This document shows, in pieces, positions 28,896 through 48,361 of a stretch of DNA of 64,000 nt. The DNA is from Owenia fusiformis. Taxonomy: Eukaryota; Annelida; Polychaeta; Sabellida; Oweniidae. The DNA lies in the NCBI GenBank assembly GCA_903813345.2, contig CAIIXF020000001.1, positions 28,449,915 to 28,513,914 on the forward strand, given 5' to 3'. The notes beneath the pieces were generated by a model, which made no database searches, was not told the origin of the DNA, and saw only the letters and a list, made by a program, of their open reading frames with translations. The translations under genes were made by a program, and so were the position numbers. How positions within the stretch are numbered: position 1 is the first letter of the stretch; every line of letters starts with the position of its first letter.

Positions 28896-30313
28896 TTATT
28901 GCCATCCATCAAGTTTATACGGTTCTAAACAATCCAACATCTTCACTAGTGCAGCTGAATCAGGAACATTATGAGTTTTGAATTGCTCCCTTATGTATTT
29001 TATCCATGGTATCCACTCCTGTCTCCATTGAGGATGAGACGCTACACTATCAGAAAGTAGTTCCAATCTGAACATGTTCCGACAGCCTGCCATGTCAATT
29101 CGACCAGCAGTATCAACCATCGGGAAGTCAACATCTGGTAGTTTGGTACCTCTGTCATCCTTTACAGAGTCTGCATTATCCCACGCATACTTAGTGTCAT
29201 ATATACGATGTAGGTTAGCAACAATTTCTCTGAAGCACTTGCCAATCTTGCTGGGTTCGTCAGATTGCTCATTAAGACATTTTTCATAGTGACGTTTCAC
29301 TGCAGTTGTCAGCATGTAGGTATCCGACCTCGGTGAGAACACCTCCGTCATGAAGTACTTCAACACGAACACAATCTGCCTATGGGCATCGTCAAGTCCT
29401 TGTTTATTAGCTGGTTTCTCGCAAATTGACATTGTCCAATGAAACGCTGAATCAGAAAAGTCACAATTCGAACAATGGTCTTGACGAATAGGGTCAACAG
29501 GTACCAGGATCAGTCTTCCATTCTCAGTGTGTTTATGGTGTACACAGAGGCACAGATCGACCTCAGTTGGACAAACGGGGGCCTTGAGTAATGTCACTGT
29601 AACAGAGGGACCAGTTGTGTCTACTGAAAACTTCTCATAATCATCTTTCCCGTTTATGTATTCAAGACATCTCATCACAGCCTTCTGGAAAACAACATAG
29701 ACGTAAATACTAATTGAACCGGTCTTGGGATCGATCACTGGCAGTTCTTGTGATAGTTCATCACCGAGTTCAGTGTGGAGTTCTTGAAAAATAGCAATCA
29801 AAGCATCGGTTTTCAAGGTCACTTGTCCACTCTTTGTACCATGGATGTCACGTGTGTCGTTCGTGTCGATCTTACTATCCACGGAGAGTGCCCATAACAG
29901 AAGGAAATCAAATTCGTCAGGATTCATAATCTTCAAACCTTTATAGAAGCTACCAGATTTCACCATTTGTACATCAAAAATACCAGGGTACAACTCATGT
30001 AGTGTTTTAATGACATCGTGTACGAACGCTTCTACGTATTCTCGTTGTTGCTCCACGGCAGCATCGGTGTAGTTCACCCGGATCTTCTTGGCGACAAAGT
30101 CAATAAATTTAGCTAAACTCATGTTTTCAATCTCTCGTTGTTGTTCATCTTGGGTTGGGTTATCACCACATTTAGACCCACTTGCCGCTATTTGTTTAGA
30201 GTCGTGAATCGTTGCTTTCTCATTATCAGCATCCTCACATTTGATAGCTGCTTGTAGTTTGTCATGTAAACCATCTGTCTCAGGTTCAGTGTTCTTAGAT
30301 TCACACCGGAGCC
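28896..30313 (-). CDS. cGAS-like / Mab-21 nucleotidyltransferase, catalytic exon (copy 1)
   Basis: A long terminal exon of about 471 residues begins after a strong acceptor: TGACTAAT branch-like motif, then ATCATTACAG|GGCTCC. There is no ATG near the frame's start, so an upstream exon must supply the N-terminus. After an acidic linker, the nucleotidyltransferase core has the P-loop-like KSGSFYKG, then NPDEFDFLL with the first two metal-binding acids (E-x-D). The third acid is in PTEVDLCL. These are the G-S, E/D-x-D and D motifs of active cGAS-like receptors, all intact. The C-terminal Mab-21 helical half follows (QIVFVLKYFMTEVF, CFREIVANLHRIYD). By family knowledge, such enzymes sense nucleic acid and make cyclic dinucleotides for STING signalling. 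Some Mab-21 relatives are not enzymes, but the complete triad argues for activity. The preceding intron holds two mobile elements. Confidence 0.88.
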
Positions 30314-30396
30314 CTGTAATGATATTAGTCAATGTAAATTAAACAGAATCGTACACTTTTTAGTGAGTCGTCTAGCTTTGCTGATTTTATGCATTA

Positions 30397-31456
30397 CAGG
30401 GTGGGCCAATAAAAACTGGAACATTTTTCTATTTATTCAATTGTCTTTATTTTTGCAAATTCAGATAATGGTAAAGTGATTATTTGTGAAAATATCTCAG
30501 AAGATAAAAATATGAATGTATGATTATTTTTGGCTTGTCATGGTCATGATCTGTATTCTGCGTGTGTCATGAAACATTTCAAAATCTTCTCTGCTTGAAA
30601 CATCCTGCTGAAAACACGGTATCTTTTATACCATACAATATGTACCCTTCAATTTCCATAAATTAAAACAAATGTAATTATCTCTAGGAGAAGCAAGACA
30701 TGTCTCCCTTGGGTAATATAGCTTAATTGACCTCGTTTTTTTAAAAAAAACTGGCACAAGATGTCTCAAAACCTGTCATTTAAGCCATGTATGACTGTCA
30801 AATACAGCTCTGAAACTGATTGTTCAGGTGGGCAGAGGTTCAGGAAACCCTTGTGTTAGGTAAAAAAAATTGGAACAGTTTTCTATCTATTGTAACATTT
30901 TTGTTGGTCATGTATTATCTTCAATGCTTTAGAAAATTGAAAAACAATTCATTGACAGCTTGTGTAAATATGAATATACAAGCTCAACATTTAATTACTG
31001 AACATGTCCTCCACCCACCTGAACAATCAGCCGAGCTGTATTTGGCAGTCGTGAATGGCTTAAACGATATTGTGCCAGTTTTGAAAAAAACTGAGGTCAG
31101 TTAAGCTATATTATCCAAAGGAGACATGTCTAGCTTCTCCTAGAGATAACTACATTTGTTTTAATTGATAGAAATTGTGTTGAACCCATTTGAAGGGCAT
31201 ATATTGTATGGTATGAGATACTGTATCTTTCAGCATTGATGTCTCAAGCAGAGAAAATTTGGAAATTTTTCATGACGCACACAGTATACAGATAATGACC
31301 GTGACAAGCCAAAAATAATCATACATACATATTTTTATCTTTAACATTTTCACAAATAATCATTTTATCATTATCTGATTTTTTGTTGACTGAACTGCAA
31401 TAATAAAGAAAATTTAGTAAATAGAAAAATGTTCCAATTTTTATTGGCCCACCCTG
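30397..31456. mobile_element. Foldback element (mariner-like) in intron of cGAS-like gene 1
   Basis: TA|CAGGGTGGGCCAATAAAA at the left is mirrored by TTTTATTGGCCCACCCTG|TA at the right, with one mismatch in the first 28 bp. Arms of about 350 bp mirror each other, e.g. AGGAGAAGCAAGACATGTCT against AGACATGTCTAGCTTCTCCT. Copy 2 of the duplication lacks the element: its intron continues from GCTGATTTTATGCA straight into ATCAATATT. It is therefore a post-duplication insertion. There is no transposase ORF; the 94-codon ORF at 30820-31104 spans the loop and is not a known protein. Confidence 0.85.
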
Positions 31457-31482
31457 TACATCAATATTCAATGTATTTGATC

Positions 31483-32511
31483 CAAGGGAAAGATCAATAC
31501 CCGGTGATTTCAGCGGGAAGTGGCGTTTCGTTCAGTGGATGAGCTGCGCGCGCACGCATAAATGTGATTATAAGCTTTGAACCGAGACAAGGGAACCGAG
31601 AGATATTCACGATTGATATGCACATTTTTGATTGTGCCATTGCTTTTCCATTGCTCAATCCATGTATTGATAGAAGTAACATTAATAATGCAGATTGGTT
31701 TACTTTCAATACATGGCAGACACTACATATCGGTCTATTAAATACCAGTTTGTGCCTTAGATAGTTTTATATTTCCATCCACGGCCTGGAGCCTGGGTGT
31801 GTTTGTCTCTTGTGTTTGTGCTTGTGCATGGACTTCTAATCACTAGCAGAATATAACATGATGCAAACTCGACATTATAACTCATGCTGTAACATTTTGA
31901 CTTTGCTGGAAAACAATAGGAATTATTTTTCTTGCCAATCAATCATGAATCACAATCAAAATTTCACTATGATCAATCAGGCAATGGTCCAAATCATGAA
32001 GTTATAACATTATATGATATTCAGCAAGAAGTCCGGTAGAAATACAGAATATTTAAACATCAAAGCTGAAAGTTAAAAGCTAATCTGTCAATTTTCTGTC
32101 TGCAAAAGAGCGTTTACATTTGACACAATAACAGACTGAGTCTTTGAAATCTAGGATTCCCCAGGAAAATATGACGTCATACTAATTAGCATAAGGATTT
32201 CCCTATTGGTATGGGTCGAGCCTTGTTCGAAAACACAATCCATAAATACATGCTAATTTCTAAGGAGATAGGAAGTGTATAACGTGTTTATCGATTTTGT
32301 TCAAAGATTTAATCAATTATCAAATTGTTTAAGTGGATAAAGTGGTAACACTTGCTTCAATTCATAGCGTAATCGACGGATAGAAACTGACCGAATTCCC
32401 GATATCCTACCCCGTATTACTGTAGGCTATAAGCACAGTGACCTACAGAGGGCGCTATCACAAACAAGTACTGCACGAACCGATAAATTCCCGGGTATTG
32501 TAACGCCCTTG
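31483..32511. mobile_element. 7-bp-TSD DNA element, copy A
   Basis: The exact 7-bp duplication TTTGATC flanks it (31476-31482 and 32512-32518). The paralogous intron in copy 2 has TTTGATC once, confirming the insertion. The left end reads CAAGGGAAAGATCAATACCC. The right end, on the other strand, reads CAAGGGCGTTACAATACCCG. These are imperfect TIRs with CAAGGG and CAATACCCGG in common. It is 1029 bp with no transposase. It lies in the intron of cGAS-like gene 1. Confidence 0.9.
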
Positions 32512-32676
32512 TTTGATCTACTCGGCCTTCTTTAAAGAAGTATCATGTGCATGGGTTACTGTAAATGAAATAGACAAAATATCAAGGAAATGCTGAACAA
32601 ATATGAATATACAGTCGTTGATATGATTTGGATAAAACCTACATGGATTTTATAAATGAAAACATAGCATTGATAC

Positions 32677-33433
32677 CATGTGATCTTTCTTTGTTCTTCG
32701 CCTGATGGATCAACTCGGTGACCAGTTTTGTTGTTCTTCTATAAGACACCAATAATCTCGCCTTTGTCATGAAAAGATCAGTTACTAAGGCAGTCGTCAT
32801 ATCTTCTCTTGGATGCCACATTTTTTCTATCGAGGCAATCTTCGCTAGAAGTTCGGGCCTGCGGTTACGTAAGCTTTGAAATTTGTCATCCAATCTATTA
32901 AATTGTCCCATTGCCTGTGCAAGTAACTGTTGTTTTGTTTCAGCTGATACTGTTGTATCTTTAATATCATCACGTGCTTTTGTTTCTTTTAAGGGATCCT
33001 TTTGCGCAATATCAGTGGCATTTGGGGCATCTTTCATACTCGCGTCCTTATTAGCAGATGTAATGTCGAGTAACTGTCCAATTGGAGATTCTTTTGAGAA
33101 TGTTAGAAACTGTAGGTCAAGTAATAATGAAGACGATAGTTCGGAATCGAAGCCTTTGTCTTCGGCCCCATACACAGTATCTCTGAACGACCGAACGAGA
33201 TCGTAATTAAGGTCCCCGAGTTGCGCTAGTTCGTGAAGTTTGAAGTATACGTCGCTTGTCAACATGCTTCTTTGAAGATTCCTTAGCATGTTTGGAAAAA
33301 TCGAATTCGCTGCCTCTTCCCGAAGGAGTTGTTTGAAATAAGTTGTATTCTTCCTTGCTATTAATGCTTTTAAAGCCTGTCGCCATAAATCATCAATTAT
33401 GGCCTTTTTGATTGTCTGTTCCACATTCTCCAT
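32677..33433 (-). CDS. Helical N-terminal exon paired with cGAS-like gene 1
   Basis: The start is ATG 33433. It is conserved in copy 2 and follows an acceptor ending at 33452 (ATATTTCCAG|G); the in-frame ATG at 33475 would lie upstream of that acceptor. Residues 1-110 are dense amphipathic helix (LWRQALKALI, YFKQLLREE, MLRNLQRSM, YFKLHELAQLGDLNYDLV). A polar linker rich in D, K and T follows, then a second helical region (KQQLLAQAMGQFNRL, KARLLVSYRRTTKLVTELI). I recognise no named domain. A small helical-bundle adaptor is one possibility. The donor CATG|GTATCA at 32677/32676 is phase 1 and joins the catalytic exon in frame, giving one protein of 724 residues. The alternative is a separate gene ending at the TAG at 32639. 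Confidence 0.65.
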
Positions 33434-33451: not shown

Positions 33452-34129
33452 CTGGAAATATAGAGATTTCTCCATGACCTTCTTACTGTGATTAGGATAT
33501 GTGAAAGCTGCTTAAAAGATTATACTTTGCTAATCTTCCTGACCAAAAATAGAACATCCGAGTCATTCATTTTTCACAAAATATTTGGCCCACCGGTTCC
33601 GTTTTCCTGACGATGTTGAACCAGCCCATGTAATGGTCCTAATGATACTCTCCAAATTCTTCAATTTTTAAAATATAAATTATCAATGTTAGCCTTATGT
33701 TAGCACACATAATATTGCGTTTCTGTAGACTGTTTAATATATCCATGTGGTTCCAATATATTCACGATGATCAATGATTTCGAAGTCACAGTTTGACAGC
33801 GATTTGTTTAACTTACATAGACTGTACAGATGTGGAGAGCATGACCAAATGTTTCCACATTTTGGCGCGGGACTGCACAGTAAAATAAAACTGATATAAA
33901 TGTGCTAATATCATTTATATACTACAGTATACGCACCCTGATTAATTTACTTCCTGGTTGCTACCATATATTGTACCCTTATTTGAACTCAATACAGGTA
34001 AACAAGTTTTGGTCTATTGAGATGCATGTAAAATTAACAATACTTTCTCTCAATCCCAATCCATTGAATCCTGTTTTTATTCTGATCGTGCAGTCCTAGA
34101 ATGAAGAAATGATCCTGGCCTAGTTGTAG
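33452..34129 (-). other. 5' flank of cGAS-like gene 1
   Basis: Non-coding sequence, partly alignable with 43990-44900 in copy 2 (e.g. ATATGTGAAAGCTG). An acceptor immediately upstream of the helical exon implies a further 5' exon, probably non-coding. It was not identified. Confidence 0.4.
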
Positions 34130-35138
34130 CAAGGGCGTTACAATACCCGGGAATTTATCGGTTCGTGCAGTACTTGTTTGTGATAGCGCCCTCTGTAGGT
34201 CACTGTGCTTATAGCCTACAGTAATACGGGGTAGGATATCGGGAATTCGGTCAGTTTCTATCCGTCGATTTCGCTATGAATTGAAGCAAGTGTGACCACT
34301 TTATCCACTTAAACAATTTGATAATTGATTAAATATTTAAACAAAATCGATAAACACGTTGACAAATTGACAGATTAGCTTTTAACTTTCAGCTTTGATG
34401 TTTAAATATTCTGTATTTCTACCGGACTTCTTGCTGAATATCATATTATGTTATAACTTGATTTGGATCATTGCCTGATTGCTCATTCTGAAATTTTGAT
34501 TGTGATTCATGATTGATTGGCAAGAAAAATAATTCCTATTGTTTTCCAGCGAAGTCAAAATGTTACAGCATGAGTTATAATGTCGAGTTTGCATCATGTT
34601 AAATTCTGCTAGTGATTAGAAGTCCATGCACAAGCATACACATAAGAGACAAACACACCCAGGCTCCAGGCCGTGGATGGAAATATAAAACTATTTAAGG
34701 CACAAACTGGTATTAATAGACCGATATGTAGTGTCTACCATGTATTGAAGGTAAACCAATCTGCATTATTAATGTTTCTTCTATCAATACATGGATTGTG
34801 CAATGGAAAAGCAATGGCACAATCAAAAATGTGCATATCAATCGTGAATATCTCTCGGTTCAAAGCTTATTTCCAACAGAATCGTGTCAAAATATGTGTC
34901 TGAGTAACAGTTATACATTATAAGATCGCAAACTCTTACCAATTATCAGCCGAATGGCTCATTTTCAACGAAATGTCCTTAAGACAACAGCCCTGGGTCG
35001 CGCCTGAGACCAAAAACTATTTCAAATAGCCCTCCCCTAATTATATTGGATAATCACATTTATGCGTGCGCGCGCAGCTCATCCACTGAACGAAACGCCA
35101 CTTCCCGCTGAAATCACCGGGTATTGATCTTTCCCTTG
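34130..35138. mobile_element. 7-bp-TSD DNA element, copy B
   Basis: The exact duplication GTTGTAG occurs at 34123-34129 and 35139-35145. It has the same termini as copy A in the opposite orientation and aligns with A along most of its 1009 bp. One block of about 160 bp near 34872-35045 is unlike A (AACAGAATCGTGTCAAAATA and following). A and B thus form an inverted pair around the helical exon. Confidence 0.9.
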
Positions 35139-35145
35139 GTTGTAG

Positions 35146-41551: not shown

Positions 41552-42978
41552 TTATTGCCATCCATCAGGTTTATACGGTTGCAAATAATTCAACATCTTC
41601 ACTAGTGCAGCTGAATCAGGAACGTTATGAGATTTGAATTGCTCCCTAATGTCTTTTATCCATGGTATCCACTCCTGTCTCCATTGAGGATGAGACGCTA
41701 CACTATCAGAAAGTAGTCTCAATCTGAGCATGTTCCGACAGCCTGCCATGTCAATTCGACCAGCAGTATCAACCATCGGGAAATCAACATCTGGTAGTTT
41801 GGTACCTCTGTCATCCTTTACAGAGTCTGCATTATCCCACGCATACTTAGTGTCATATATACGATGTAGGTTAGCAACAATTTCTCTGAAGCACTTTCCA
41901 ATCTTACTGGGTTCGTAAGATTGCTCATTTAGACATTTTTCATAGTGACGTTTCACTGCAGTTGTCAGCATGTAGGTATCCGACCTCGGGGAGAACACCT
42001 CCGTCATCAAGTACTTCAACACGAAAACAATCTGTCTATGGGCATCGTCAAGTCCTTGCTTATTAGCTGGTTTCTCACAAATTGACACTGTCCAATGAAA
42101 CGCTGAATCAGAAAAGTCACAATTCGAACAATGGTCTTTACGAATAGGGTCAACAGGCACCAGGATCAGTCGTCCATTCTCAGTGTGTTTATGATGTACA
42201 CACAGGCACAGATCGACCTCAGTGGGACAGACGGGGGCCTTAAGTAATGTAACTGTAACAGAAGGACCTGTTGTGTCTACTGAAAACTTCTCATAATCAT
42301 CTTTCCCGTTCATGTATTCAAGACATCTCATCACAGCCTTCTGGAAAACAACATAGACGTAAATACTAATCGAACCGGTCACGGGATCGATCACTGGAAG
42401 TTCTTGTGATAGTTCATCACCGAGTTCAGTGTGAAGTTCTTGAAAAATCGCAATCAAAGCATCGGTTTTCAAGGTTACTTGTCCACTCTTTGTACCATGG
42501 ATGTCACGAGTGTCTTTCGTGCCGATCTTTTTAAGTGTATCCACGGAGAGTGTCCATAATAGAAGGAAATCGAATTCGTCAGGATTCATAATCTTCAAAC
42601 CTTTATAGAAGCTTCCAGATTTCACCATTTGTACATCAAAAACACCAGGGTACAACTCATGAAGTGTTTTAATGACATCGTGTACGAACGCTTCTACGTA
42701 TTCTTTTTGTCGTTCCACGTTAGCGTCAGAGTAGTTCACCCTGGCCTTCTTGGCGACGAAGTCCACAAAGGTAGCTAAACTCATATTTTCAAGCTCTTGC
42801 TGTTGTTCATCTTGTGTTGGGTTATCATTACATTCAGCTTCACATGCCGCTATTTGTTTATGGTCATGATTTGTTGCTTTCTCATTATAATTACCCTCAC
42901 ATTTAATGGCTGTCTGTAGCGTGTCTTGTAAGCCATCTGTCCCAGTAGGTTCAGTGTTTTTGGATTCACACTGGAGCC
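41552..42978 (-). CDS. cGAS-like / Mab-21 nucleotidyltransferase, catalytic exon (copy 2)
   Basis: This is the paralogue of the exon at 28896-30313, nearly identical through the catalytic core. KSGSFYKG, NPDEFDFLL and PTEVDLCL (the G-S, E-x-D and D motifs) are all intact. The acceptor ATTATTCCAG|GGCTCC is conserved in position and phase. Differences cluster in the N-terminal acidic linker (GTDGLQDTLQ, EGNYNEKATN) and at a small insertion, TLKKIGTK, just after the core Asp. The intron to the upstream helical exon is only about 236 bp because the two insertions seen in copy 1 are absent. It is probably a functional second enzyme, but see the phase conflict at its upstream exon. Confidence 0.87.
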
Positions 42979-43214
42979 CTGGAATAATATTGGTCATTGT
43001 AAATCAAACCACAATCACAGGAGCTGATTTTATGCAGTGTATCAATATTTGAAATGCACAACATGTAATTTGATCTACTCTTCTTATTATCTGAGCTTCG
43101 GAAAATAAAATAGACAAAACATCAAGGAAATGCTGAACGAATATTAACATAGGTGATGGTATGATTTAAATCAAGCCTACATGAATTTCATCAATGAGAA
43201 TAAAGCATTGATAC

Positions 43215-43975
43215 CATGTGTTTTTTTCCTTTTTCTTCGCCTGTTGGATCAACGCCGTCACCAGTTTTGTTGTTCTTCTATAAGACACTAATAATTTCGC
43301 CTTTGTCATGAAAAGATCAGTTGTCAAGGCAGTCGTCATATCTTCTCTTGGATGCCACATTTTTTCTTTCGAGGCTATTTCCTCTAGAATTTCGGGTCTT
43401 TGCTCACGTGAGCTTTGAAATGTGTCATCTATTGTATTTAATTGTCCCATTGCCTGTGCAAGTAACTGCTGTTTTGTTTCAGCTGATACTGTTTTATCCT
43501 TGATATCATCACATCCTTTTATTTCTTCTTGGGGATCCTTTTGCGCAATATCAGTGGCATTCGGGACGTCTTTCATACTCGCGTCATTATTTGCAGATGT
43601 TATGTCGAGTAACTGTCCAATTGGAGATTCTTTTGAGAGTATCAGAAACTGAAGGTCAAGTAATGTTGAATTCCTTGGTTCGATGTCAACCCCTTTGTCT
43701 TCAACCCCATACACGGTATCTCTGAAAGACTGGACGATATCGTAATTAAGGTCACCGAGTTGCGCTAGTTCGTGAAGTTTGAAGTATACATCGCTTGCCA
43801 ACATGCTTCTTTGTAGATTCCTCAGCATGTTTGGAAAAATCAAATTCTCCATTTCTTCTTGCAGGAGCTGTTTGAAGTGAGTTGTATTCTTCCTGACTAT
43901 TAATGCTGTTACGGATTGTCGCCATGAATCATCCATGGCTTCTTTGATCGTCGCCTCTACATTGTCCGTCTCCAT
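43215..43975 (-). CDS. Helical N-terminal exon paired with cGAS-like gene 2
   Basis: Paralogue of 32677-33433, starting at ATG 43975 after an acceptor ending near 43990 (TTATCTTCCAG|A). The helical blocks are conserved (SWRQSVTALI, HFKQLLQEEMEN, MLRNLQRSML, YFKLHELAQLGDLNYDIV, KAKLLVSYRRTTKLVTALI). The conserved donor CATG|GTATCA at 43215/43214 falls in phase 2 here, not phase 1, because of one extra base in an A-rich run (seven T on the + strand at 43221-43227). Joined to the catalytic exon, the frame would break. Options are a different donor, a sequence error in the homopolymer, or a damaged copy. The stop of the unspliced ORF is at 43166. Confidence 0.6.
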
Positions 43976-45519: not shown

Positions 45520-46194
45520 TTAGTGTGTGTTTGATTTATTAGTGAGATCACAATAAACAATGACACTATCAATCCAACCGTAGTCCTTAACGTAAGATGT
45601 CTTGGGCAATCTTTCAATCAACTCCCATATCGGATTATCTCGACATGCCTTGATGACGGGAGCATTATTAACGTGTATCTCTCCCAAACAACCTTCATAC
45701 CCGATTTCGTCTGCTAGTTCAGAGTAGAGTCGGTTCAATAATTTTATACAGCCCCTACCCCTGTATTCTTGGGTTACTATAAAATTGCTTCCAGCTAGAA
45801 CGGGGTTTGAAGCTCTACTCAAACGCGACGGATAGATCGTGATCCCTCCAATTAATCTATCAGCATCTTGGTCAACTAGCGAAAATATTTGACCGCGGCT
45901 ATGTTTTTCTTTGAAATGATCAAGGGAAAGAAAGTCATCGTGTCCATAACCTTGACCTCGGTGCATTGCGCCGTGAAATTGTGTATAGATGTCACCTATT
46001 TGCTTCTCAGTTGCTGAATCAACCAGTACATTTGTCCCGTCTTTTAAGACAGTGTGTTTTGGAAGATTTGGAAGTTTCTTGTAGTCAGGAATTCTATGAA
46101 GGATCCGTCTTTGTATTATATTCACGAGGTGATGCCCTGGACGGTTCACAATCAGCCGCTGTGTGGAAGGATGACTGGCGATTCTCAATAACAT
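45520..46194 (-). CDS. GNAT-family N-acetyltransferase, single exon
   Basis: The 224-residue ORF runs from ATG 46194. The N-terminus (LLRIASHPSTQRLIV, NIIQRRILHRI) is basic, amphipathic and without acids for over 30 residues, like a mitochondrial targeting peptide. The GNAT core follows: a β-strand with RLIGGITIYPSR, the strand AGSNFIVTQ, and the acetyl-CoA pyrophosphate loop EYRGRGCIKLLNRLY (R145-G148). The usual last Gly/Ala of the RxxGxG/A motif is Ile150, a mild departure. The later strand has GCLGEIHVNNAPVIKAC. Substrate is unknown. An upstream non-coding exon is possible. Confidence 0.78.
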   Translation of the reverse strand: MLLRIASHPSTQRLIVNRPGHHLVNIIQRRILHRIPDYKKLPNLPKHTVLKDGTNVLVDSATEKQIGDIYTQFHGAMHRGQGYGHDDFLSLDHFKEKHSRGQIFSLVDQDADRLIGGITIYPSRLSRASNPVLAGSNFIVTQEYRGRGCIKLLNRLYSELADEIGYEGCLGEIHVNNAPVIKACRDNPIWELIERLPKTSYVKDYGWIDSVIVYCDLTNKSNTH

Positions 46195-48361
46195 TGTCGT
46201 AATAAGTGTATGTTGCTTTGTTTGCTCGTTTGTTTGTTAGATCCAACTACTTCTCCTCGAAAGCATATCCAGTTTGAAATCAGGTCATACGTAACTATGG
46301 TGTAATAAAATTTAATACTTGAAATTACCTCTGCTACTCAAGTTGTTTTAAATACGATGATCCAAGTCTCTCCAATGATTCAAACTGATGCGATTCCGAT
46401 ATGCTGTGTTTAGATGAACGTATGATCAACCGAATATTCAACCGGACAGCGGGACAGCGGTTAATGGCGTGTCATAAAGAAATGGCGAAAAGGATACTGC
46501 AATTGTACAGCGACCTTGACTAATCACTTGCGAATGTCTCTACGGCTCTACTAGACGAGTACAACTATATACAATATACATACATGATACATGTAGGTCA
46601 AGTACCACCAGATAGACGTATCGAATCCTACTGTTACTGTTCATAACAGATAAAGAAAAATAAAGAGGTTCTAAAAATTTTATGATATTAGAATTGTATA
46701 AACGGCAACATTAATTAGAACCATGAATGCCAATATAGATTCATCGAGCCAATGATTTTTGAAAGTAAAAATTACATCAATTACAAATGATGTAAGACGC
46801 CTAATTTTCTAATCATCAAAACCATGCAAAATCAATATGCAACCAATGCAATGCCGTTGACACATTTGCTCCGATCTTCAACCAAGACGCCCGGCTGATG
46901 AATATTTTGCCATTACTGTGATCGCCATCGTCGAGCGACCTCGAGCGTTCAGTGTAATACGTAATGAAAAAGGGTAACCATCATCGGCCACTAAATTCCT
47001 AAGTTGCTGATGTACTTACAATATGCCACATGTAGATTATGTCACATAATTTTATCTGACATAATCAGTCAACATGTAGTCAGATTTATTTGATAGCATT
47101 TGGCCATTGGCTAAGGGCGATAGAAACAATTTTAAATAAAGATGGCATAGTTAAATCGATCTGTTAAAAGATAAATAGAATTCTGCAGCTGCTGCCATCT
47201 TTATATCGGACCAAAACCTATGCATCGGACCTACCTGCATACCACCGAATCATTCACCTGAGGAATATGTCAGACCATTTTAACCATCTATTCAACTCAT
47301 TTAAATATGAACCTGCCATCCTGAACCTGAATCCGTCAGCCAGCAGTTAAATTTGCGAATGCTACATTAGCTTCCCAACCTCTTTTGTTTACATTCGCCA
47401 ACACGTGAAGAATATAGGAAAGTTGGGATAACTTTTTGAAGTTAAGAATTATTGAAGCCGATTTCACTTGTCGGCGACGGGTACTCTAGTCCTGATACGA
47501 ACTGAGCAGGTCAGTGGCTATGCCGTTCGTAATATCTAGCTATTCATTACGGTAGCTTGAGTATCAAAATAGGTCAGACTTGACGAAAACAAGGATGTAG
47601 GATCGGTATCTCCACATTCCTTAATATCAGAGTTTGTTCATTTTTGATTACAAGTTAAATCCATCACCAGGTCAACACAACTATTAAACATATGTACAAT
47701 ACGTTTTTATAGCTGACAATAAAGGAATTGATGTTGCTCTATATTTTCAAAACCACTCCCACGTTAAAAATTAAAGTACGCTATGCAAACACACTTTTTT
47801 GGTATTTTAGAGCCTTTTAACCATACATGTACCAGCTCTATACTGAAGTTGTTTTAGACACCGCTTGTCATTTTTTGTAAACTACATAAGCCTAATAGTG
47901 CAATCAAAGTTTTTGGCACGCATATGTAGTCTAATTTTAACATAGCTGCAAGGTAGTCATCGGTGGAAATTGACGTGAAGGGACGAAAGGTAGCTGGGAA
48001 ACAGGACGGACTTGCCAGAAACAAACAACAAGCCACTAATTGGTATATATCGTTACACTATTCTTGGCTAGAGTATATACATTTTTGGGTAGATAGAAAC
48101 AAGTTTATACTGTACGACCTTTGAGGAACTGCCAATCGTATTAGGTAAGGACATACTTTTTTATTTAAAAGACATGGTGTGAAGTACAATACTATAATTT
48201 TATTTGAATACACTTTGGTTAAATATTACCGATGAAGTGGATAATGCCACATATTTCAAATTTAAAAACTATTAATTAGATTAAAATAATTTTAAGATTA
48301 ATAAGACCACCTTAACCATAAACCTTGCTAATGATATGGATTATGGTGTATTACGTACATC
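46195..48361. other. Divergent intergenic spacer
   Basis: Between the acetyltransferase start (-) and the first EF-hand exon (+). No ORF or RNA gene was recognised; promoters of both genes should lie here. Confidence 0.45.

Follow-up and report, generated by a model that had tools for sequence, protein, structure and literature searches.

Tandem cGAS-like loci of Owenia fusiformis with a candidate helical upstream exon

The enzyme cGAS has a basic N-terminal region ahead of its core, and animal cGAS-like receptors (cGLRs) of the Mab-21 family (PF03281) possess a nucleotidyltransferase core marked by GS and three acidic residues. The same core was found in two tandem loci on the minus strand of a 64,000-nt stretch of the 498-Mb Owenia fusiformis genome (C1:28449915-28513914; hereafter the window). 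Each locus consists of an open reading frame (ORF) predicted to be helical, followed by a Mab-21/cGAS-like ORF, and the candidate helical upstream exon distinguishes the pair from animal cGLRs. Like the basic N-terminus of cGAS, the helical part is basic from residue 164 on, with an isoelectric point (pI) of 10.3 and 9.4 in the two copies; residues 1-133 are acidic (pI 5.2 and 4.5). The accessible text of PMC9496985 describes the cGAS N-terminus as highly disordered, whereas the region here is predicted to be helical at low confidence. Fusions of cGLRs with ANK, TPR and death domains, for example in Stylophora, are described in the main text of PMC9980059 and follow the same idea, an extra interaction module on the same catalytic core. 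Unlike in those fusions, the module here lies below every Pfam cut-off; its structure models are of low confidence and a diverged domain may escape. An oyster protein, XP_011454060.1, given as HEPN-Ig-DED-TRADD-N-cGAS-TPR in the main text of PMC8195603, likewise places an N-terminal adaptor region ahead of a Mab-21-like cGAS domain, but the proteins here have no immunoglobulin, DED or TPR match in Pfam and HEPN is not supported. No counterpart of the helical module was found in the openly accessible main texts, supplements apart, of PMC9980059, PMC12424679, PMC8195603 and PMC10732462. As cGLR fusions with interaction modules are already known, the helical module looks less like a new kind of system than like one more lineage-specific addition within an enzyme family that is already known and large.

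We favour, with moderate confidence, the reading that a single gene with two or more exons was duplicated in tandem to give the two loci. Its product would be a cGAS-like receptor carrying a helical module, specific to this lineage, for oligomerisation or targeting. Exon A would encode about 252 residues, which begin with a helical domain of acidic character (about 1-133) and, past a short linker, end in a basic arm that is helical for the most part (about 164-252). From exon B would come roughly 63 residues of acidic linker, followed by the Mab-21/cGAS-like nucleotidyltransferase with its three metal-binding acids, the two exons being spliced into one protein. The enzyme would make a cyclic dinucleotide or related signal for a STING receptor of the same genome. 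The helical module would multimerise or place the enzyme or recruit an activating ligand, and synthesis would be gated by assembly. A role of the helical part as ligand-sensing or adaptor module, as in the original prediction, appears plausible. In favour of the fusion we counted the in-frame join in copy 1, the common order and strand, the similar spacing once repeats are removed and the purifying selection on the helical exon; in favour of cGAS-like signalling, the first place of cGAS in a profile search of the PDB and the presence of STING ligand-binding domains in the genome. Copy 1 spans 33433-28896 and copy 2 spans 43975-41552, with the following features.

32677..33433, minus strand: helical exon of copy 1, from its ATG as far as the proposed donor (757 nt, coding for 252 residues with one base left over)
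32675..32676, minus strand: copy 1 proposed donor GT (CATG/GTATCA), weak, inside a 17-nt stretch identical in copy 2
32639..32641, minus strand: stop codon TAG that would end the helical ORF of copy 1 without splicing
30314..32676, minus strand: copy 1 proposed intron (2363 nt, repeat-element sequence for the most part)
28896..30313, minus strand: Mab-21/cGAS-like catalytic exon of copy 1 (1418 nt with its stop)
30120..30122, minus strand: in-frame ATG, residue 73 of the copy 1 catalytic ORF, alternative start where the conserved cGLR core begins
29907..29915, minus strand: copy 1 codons E142-F143-D144, metal-binding acids one and two
29556..29558, minus strand: copy 1 codon D261, third acid
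43215..43975, minus strand: helical exon of copy 2, from its ATG as far as the proposed donor (761 nt, over frame by one base)
42979..43214, minus strand: copy 2 proposed intron (236 nt)
41552..42978, minus strand: copy 2 catalytic exon (1427 nt including stop)

The cGAS-like nature of the catalytic exons, proposed from the letters alone, was borne out. Pfam Mab-21 (PF03281) matched both copies above its curated cut-off, at 1.4e-6 and 2.5e-6. A single-sequence search of the PDB with the catalytic part gave no match at E ≤ 0.01. A profile of ten sequences, the two window copies and eight of the nine paralog loci (L013, whose exon is interrupted, was excluded), matched 43 PDB sequences at E ≤ 1, with human and mouse cGAS first (2.4e-9). 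The best-matching stretches lay mainly in the N-lobe, and a weak C-lobe segment appeared in the one alignment inspected (cGAS 4o6a). Residues G129, S130, E142, D144 and D261 (copy 1 numbering) are invariant in all ten aligned sequences, and the nucleotidyltransferase acids are intact in both copies, as had been predicted. The main text of PMC9980059 gives the cGLR search motif as h[QT]GS [X8-20] [DE]h[DE]h [X50-90] h[DE]h. The gap of 11 residues after GS falls within this pattern, and its strict form is departed from twice: S stands in place of Q/T before GS, and the second gap is 114/116 residues in place of 50-90. Since the catalytic acids are conserved, this departure counts against the pattern and not against the chemistry.

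At the proposed splice, joining the GT at 32676 to the AG before 30313 in copy 1 gives 757+1418=2175 nt, a phase-1 join and an exact codon multiple, in agreement with the original prediction; an exact multiple is expected by chance alone in 1 of 3 cases. The proposed GT and AG are conserved in both copies. Upstream of the catalytic core, the catalytic ORF remains free of in-frame stops over 63 codons in copy 1 and 64 codons in copy 2 before Met73, a stretch which stayed open in 15 of 2000 shuffles in each copy. Its coding character was scored in bits per codon, with usage trained on 12 paralog ORFs and the three frames compared. Its own frame was the best of three (+0.32 in copy 1, +0.29 in copy 2), beside +0.19 for the copy 1 core, +0.14 and +0.19 for the helical exons, and -0.03 to +0.08 for intron pieces with stops excluded. 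In both copies the catalytic ORF is closed on its upstream side by a stop that lies some 25 nt ahead of the acceptor, so an upstream exon is needed if the stretch before Met73 is coding. As this stretch looks coding in both copies, an upstream exon for the catalytic exon is likely. No mini first exon of at least 30 nt common to both gaps was found among 20 candidates in copy 1 and two in copy 2; all 20 copy 1 candidates lie inside repeat elements, and 19 shorter copy 1 candidates fall outside this list. Of the candidates for the upstream exon the helical exon is the strongest that was found, and its putative joining to the catalytic exon is the best model.

Both the helical and the catalytic ORF are under purifying selection. 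Over 243 codons, the helical exons of the two copies differ at 22, 30 and 48 sites in codon positions 1, 2 and 3 (dN/dS 0.33-0.37), third positions thus holding 48 of the 100 substitutions between the helical ORFs. The core from Met73, over 408 codons, differs at 19, 11 and 41 sites (dN/dS 0.20-0.26). Each helical ORF was subjected to 2000 dinucleotide shuffles, and in neither case did a shuffled version stay open. Synonymous divergence was also found to be unequal between the exons, 0.30-0.33 in the helical exon and 0.14-0.17 in the core from Met73 (catalytic ORFs 28899-30338 and 41555-43003), and could reflect gene conversion over the catalytic exon.

Coordinates and order of the tandem pair, on one strand, were confirmed in both copies, which share 79% protein identity in the helical and 91% in the catalytic part. 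The DNA of copy 1 is similar to that of copy 2 over 33435-32563 and 30350-28801. The intron had been called short, which is true of copy 2 (236 nt) and not of copy 1 (2363 nt); the difference is due to two repeat elements, without which the copy 1 gap is 260 nt. The first, at 30395-31458, is a foldback element with long inverted arms and at least 41 genome matches, itself and its own second arm included, with the best 40 of 390 candidates scored. The second is a copy of an abundant repeat at 31482-32520, with at least 40 genome matches, itself included, when the best 40 of 526 candidates were scored; a 240-base query from this repeat found copies at 97-100% identity on many contigs. Copies of the abundant repeat also stand in inverted orientation on either side of the copy 1 helical exon (31482-32520 and 34121-35139), and five segments of the two are 96-100% complementary. 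Upstream of copy 2, a minus-strand ORF at 45520-46236 resembles a GNAT acetyltransferase by eye.

Several observations weigh against the joined gene. The same sites in copy 2 give 761+1427=2188 nt, one base too many; since copy 2 as assembled is out of frame, it contradicts the join of helical and catalytic exon that holds in copy 1. A single base at an A-run directly before the donor makes the difference, and no GT of copy 2 from 43395 onward restores the frame to the acceptor at 42978, other acceptors having been judged only by eye. Copy 2 carries either a frame-breaking base or an assembly error, or it is spliced differently. Its catalytic exon is nevertheless open and shows no excess of disruptive changes. 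When donors were scored with a rough weight table, CATG/GTATCA proved weak, at the 78th percentile among the 3496 GTs on the minus strand of the window. A better GT lies 34 nt further on and is conserved between the copies, where it ranks at the 98th and 96th percentile; it is off-frame, and so is another GT of copy 2 (97th percentile). The catalytic exons had been said to lack an ATG, and this did not hold: the in-frame Met73 (30122-30120) opens the region aligned among paralogs and is a possible alternative start. Of the argument for an upstream exon, the part based on a missing ATG is lost and the part based on the coding look of the stretch before Met73 stands. Within the copy 1 helical exon, the second half scored higher in another frame (+0.14) than in its own (+0.10). 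The linker before Met73 diverges fast (10, 10 and 15 differences at codon positions 1, 2 and 3) and its dN/dS is unsettled, at 0.31 by NG86 and 0.79 by YN00. An AlphaFold2 model of the whole helical exon was all helical with a pLDDT of only 46, which is low confidence.

The foremost alternative, possible though less probable, is that each locus makes two separate products, the helical ORF ending at its own stop as a small protein or terminated isoform and the enzyme starting at Met73 or from an unseen exon. The weak donor and the in-frame ATG at the beginning of the conserved core both speak for it, and a Met is present before or at the core in 8 of 9 paralog loci. If the helical protein is separate, the extra base of copy 2 would alter no more than its final residues, in keeping with the otherwise intact ORF, and 87% of cGLRs are single-domain according to the main text of PMC9980059. 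Against two products stands the coding appearance of the stretch before Met73 in both copies; moreover, the 11 codons past the donor score as non-coding (-0.17 bits), and the gap of about 236-260 nt would leave little room for a promoter.

It is doubtful that copy 1 is the sole working fused gene, with copy 2 a pseudogene in decay. The one-base disruption of the frame beside the A-run at the end of the helical exon would fit such decay, but a one-base difference at an A-run could equally be an assembly error, and the catalytic ORF of copy 2 is open over 483 codons without an excess of disruptive substitutions. At 29 differing catalytic columns covered by at least five paralogs, 15 favour copy 1, 13 favour copy 2 and one favours neither; in this small test copy 2 shows no sign of relaxed constraint.

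A bolder form of the sensing idea would start from charge. The main text of PMC9980059 associates a cGLR pI above 8.5 with the sensing of nucleic acids, and supposes for acidic cores a response to unknown ligands other than nucleic acids; here the core has a pI of 5.5 in copy 1 and 6.1 in copy 2, below that of the nucleic-acid sensing cGLRs. An acidic core could then have dropped nucleic-acid sensing, and the new helical exon, with its basic arm and acidic bundle, could take over the sensing and turn on the enzyme by binding a ligand or by polymerising. In such a cGLR the receptor and the enzyme would be separable parts. We consider this reading unlikely. The cores of 13 paralogs range in pI from 5.2 to 8.7 and 9 of them lie below 7; acidic cores without the module are thus common in this genome, which counts against this reading.

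The region had been described as uncharacterised and helical. Structure prediction agreed with a helical character at low confidence, and no family was found above cut-off. With Pfam, no row passed the cut-off for whole helical ORFs (E ≤ 1) or their halves (E ≤ 10); the sub-threshold rows of the halves included SirC_C, the best, at 0.0072 in copy 1 only and CDC4_D at 0.034 in copy 2 only. The best NCBIfam row (0.045) was far below the cut-offs, and the helical part had no sequence match in the PDB. Protein searches (E ≤ 0.001 and E ≤ 10) found no helical exon elsewhere in the genome; the loose prefilter passed 2-4 candidates and diverged copies may escape. A two-sequence helical HMM, run against 3007 ORFs of 23 loci (L001-L004 excluded), among them 10 kb of added upstream sequence from three paralogs, gave nothing below E 1.8, and its best row in the remaining window was E 0.26. 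A death fold for the first helical domain, an idea formed by eye, was set aside: Pfam gave no death-fold row at E ≤ 10 and none was recognised in 50 VIA-align rows, an absence which is no exclusion.

AlphaFold2 modelled residues 1-136 with a pLDDT of 64 and a pTM of 0.52, one of five models being above 50. The best row of Foldseek against the PDB had an E-value of 1.0 and was a designed binder; the best HEPN-type row had E 2.1. In VIA-align, ranks 1-7 of 50 rows were chains of HEPN-type toxin-antitoxin pairs (Z 5.6 to 6.1), led by a chain of the MntA-HpeT pair (Z 6.1, rmsd 4.3, 99 aligned); entry 5yep is presumably of this kind. By the tool's own warning, Z values of such size are frequent for helical bundles, and these rows may reflect only a common helical-bundle arrangement. 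HEPN domains carry the motif R-x4-6-H; in the helical part none was found in copy 1 and one in copy 2, hence none common to both. Degenerate descent of the helical domain from a known fold that partners nucleotidyltransferases, with HEPN as the top structural rows, is very unlikely on these Foldseek, model and motif results, the toxin-antitoxin ranks and the N-terminal HEPN of the oyster cGAS protein (main text of PMC8195603) being the points in its favour.

Our preferred reading, a duplicated cGLR gene with a helical add-on, is set in a genome rich in related loci. The catalytic exon was found at no fewer than 107 genome places, merged to at least 83 cGLR-like loci with the best 89 of 165 candidates scored; the count is rough, as exons were matched singly and a few loci contain stops. 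The STING ligand-binding domain gave 22 rows, of which 14 were above cut-off alone and merged to 11 places, of which some are incomplete or interrupted by a stop. Four of these 11 places form a cluster of STING ligand-binding-domain exons at G000 C7:10960518-10982096. Many cGLR copies alongside several STING genes are a feature shared with other animals, as described in the main text of PMC9980059.

Several of 16 inspected cGLR-like loci have other add-ons. Candidate starts MGNTNSQ, MGCSLSKS and MGNATSKQ occur in the ORFs L014:3792-5390, L016:586-2010 and L018:1022-3103, respectively; these starts resemble N-myristoylation signals and would suggest membrane-anchored cGLRs. Hydrophobic, probably membrane-spanning stretches were seen by eye at the C-terminus of L018:1022-3103, at the N-terminus of L021:3-2486, and both N-terminally and internally in L023:247-2160. 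Long tandem peptide repeats, likewise seen by eye, follow the catalytic region in L019:500-3142, lie within or after it in L020:410-3343 and precede it in the 1795-codon ORF L022:161-5545.

If a separable N-terminal module does the sensing in these two loci, it would give a handle for finding the ligands of acidic-core cGLRs. With at least 83 cGLR-like loci and about 11 STING places, the genome of O. fusiformis is a good test bed for the gain of receptor add-ons.

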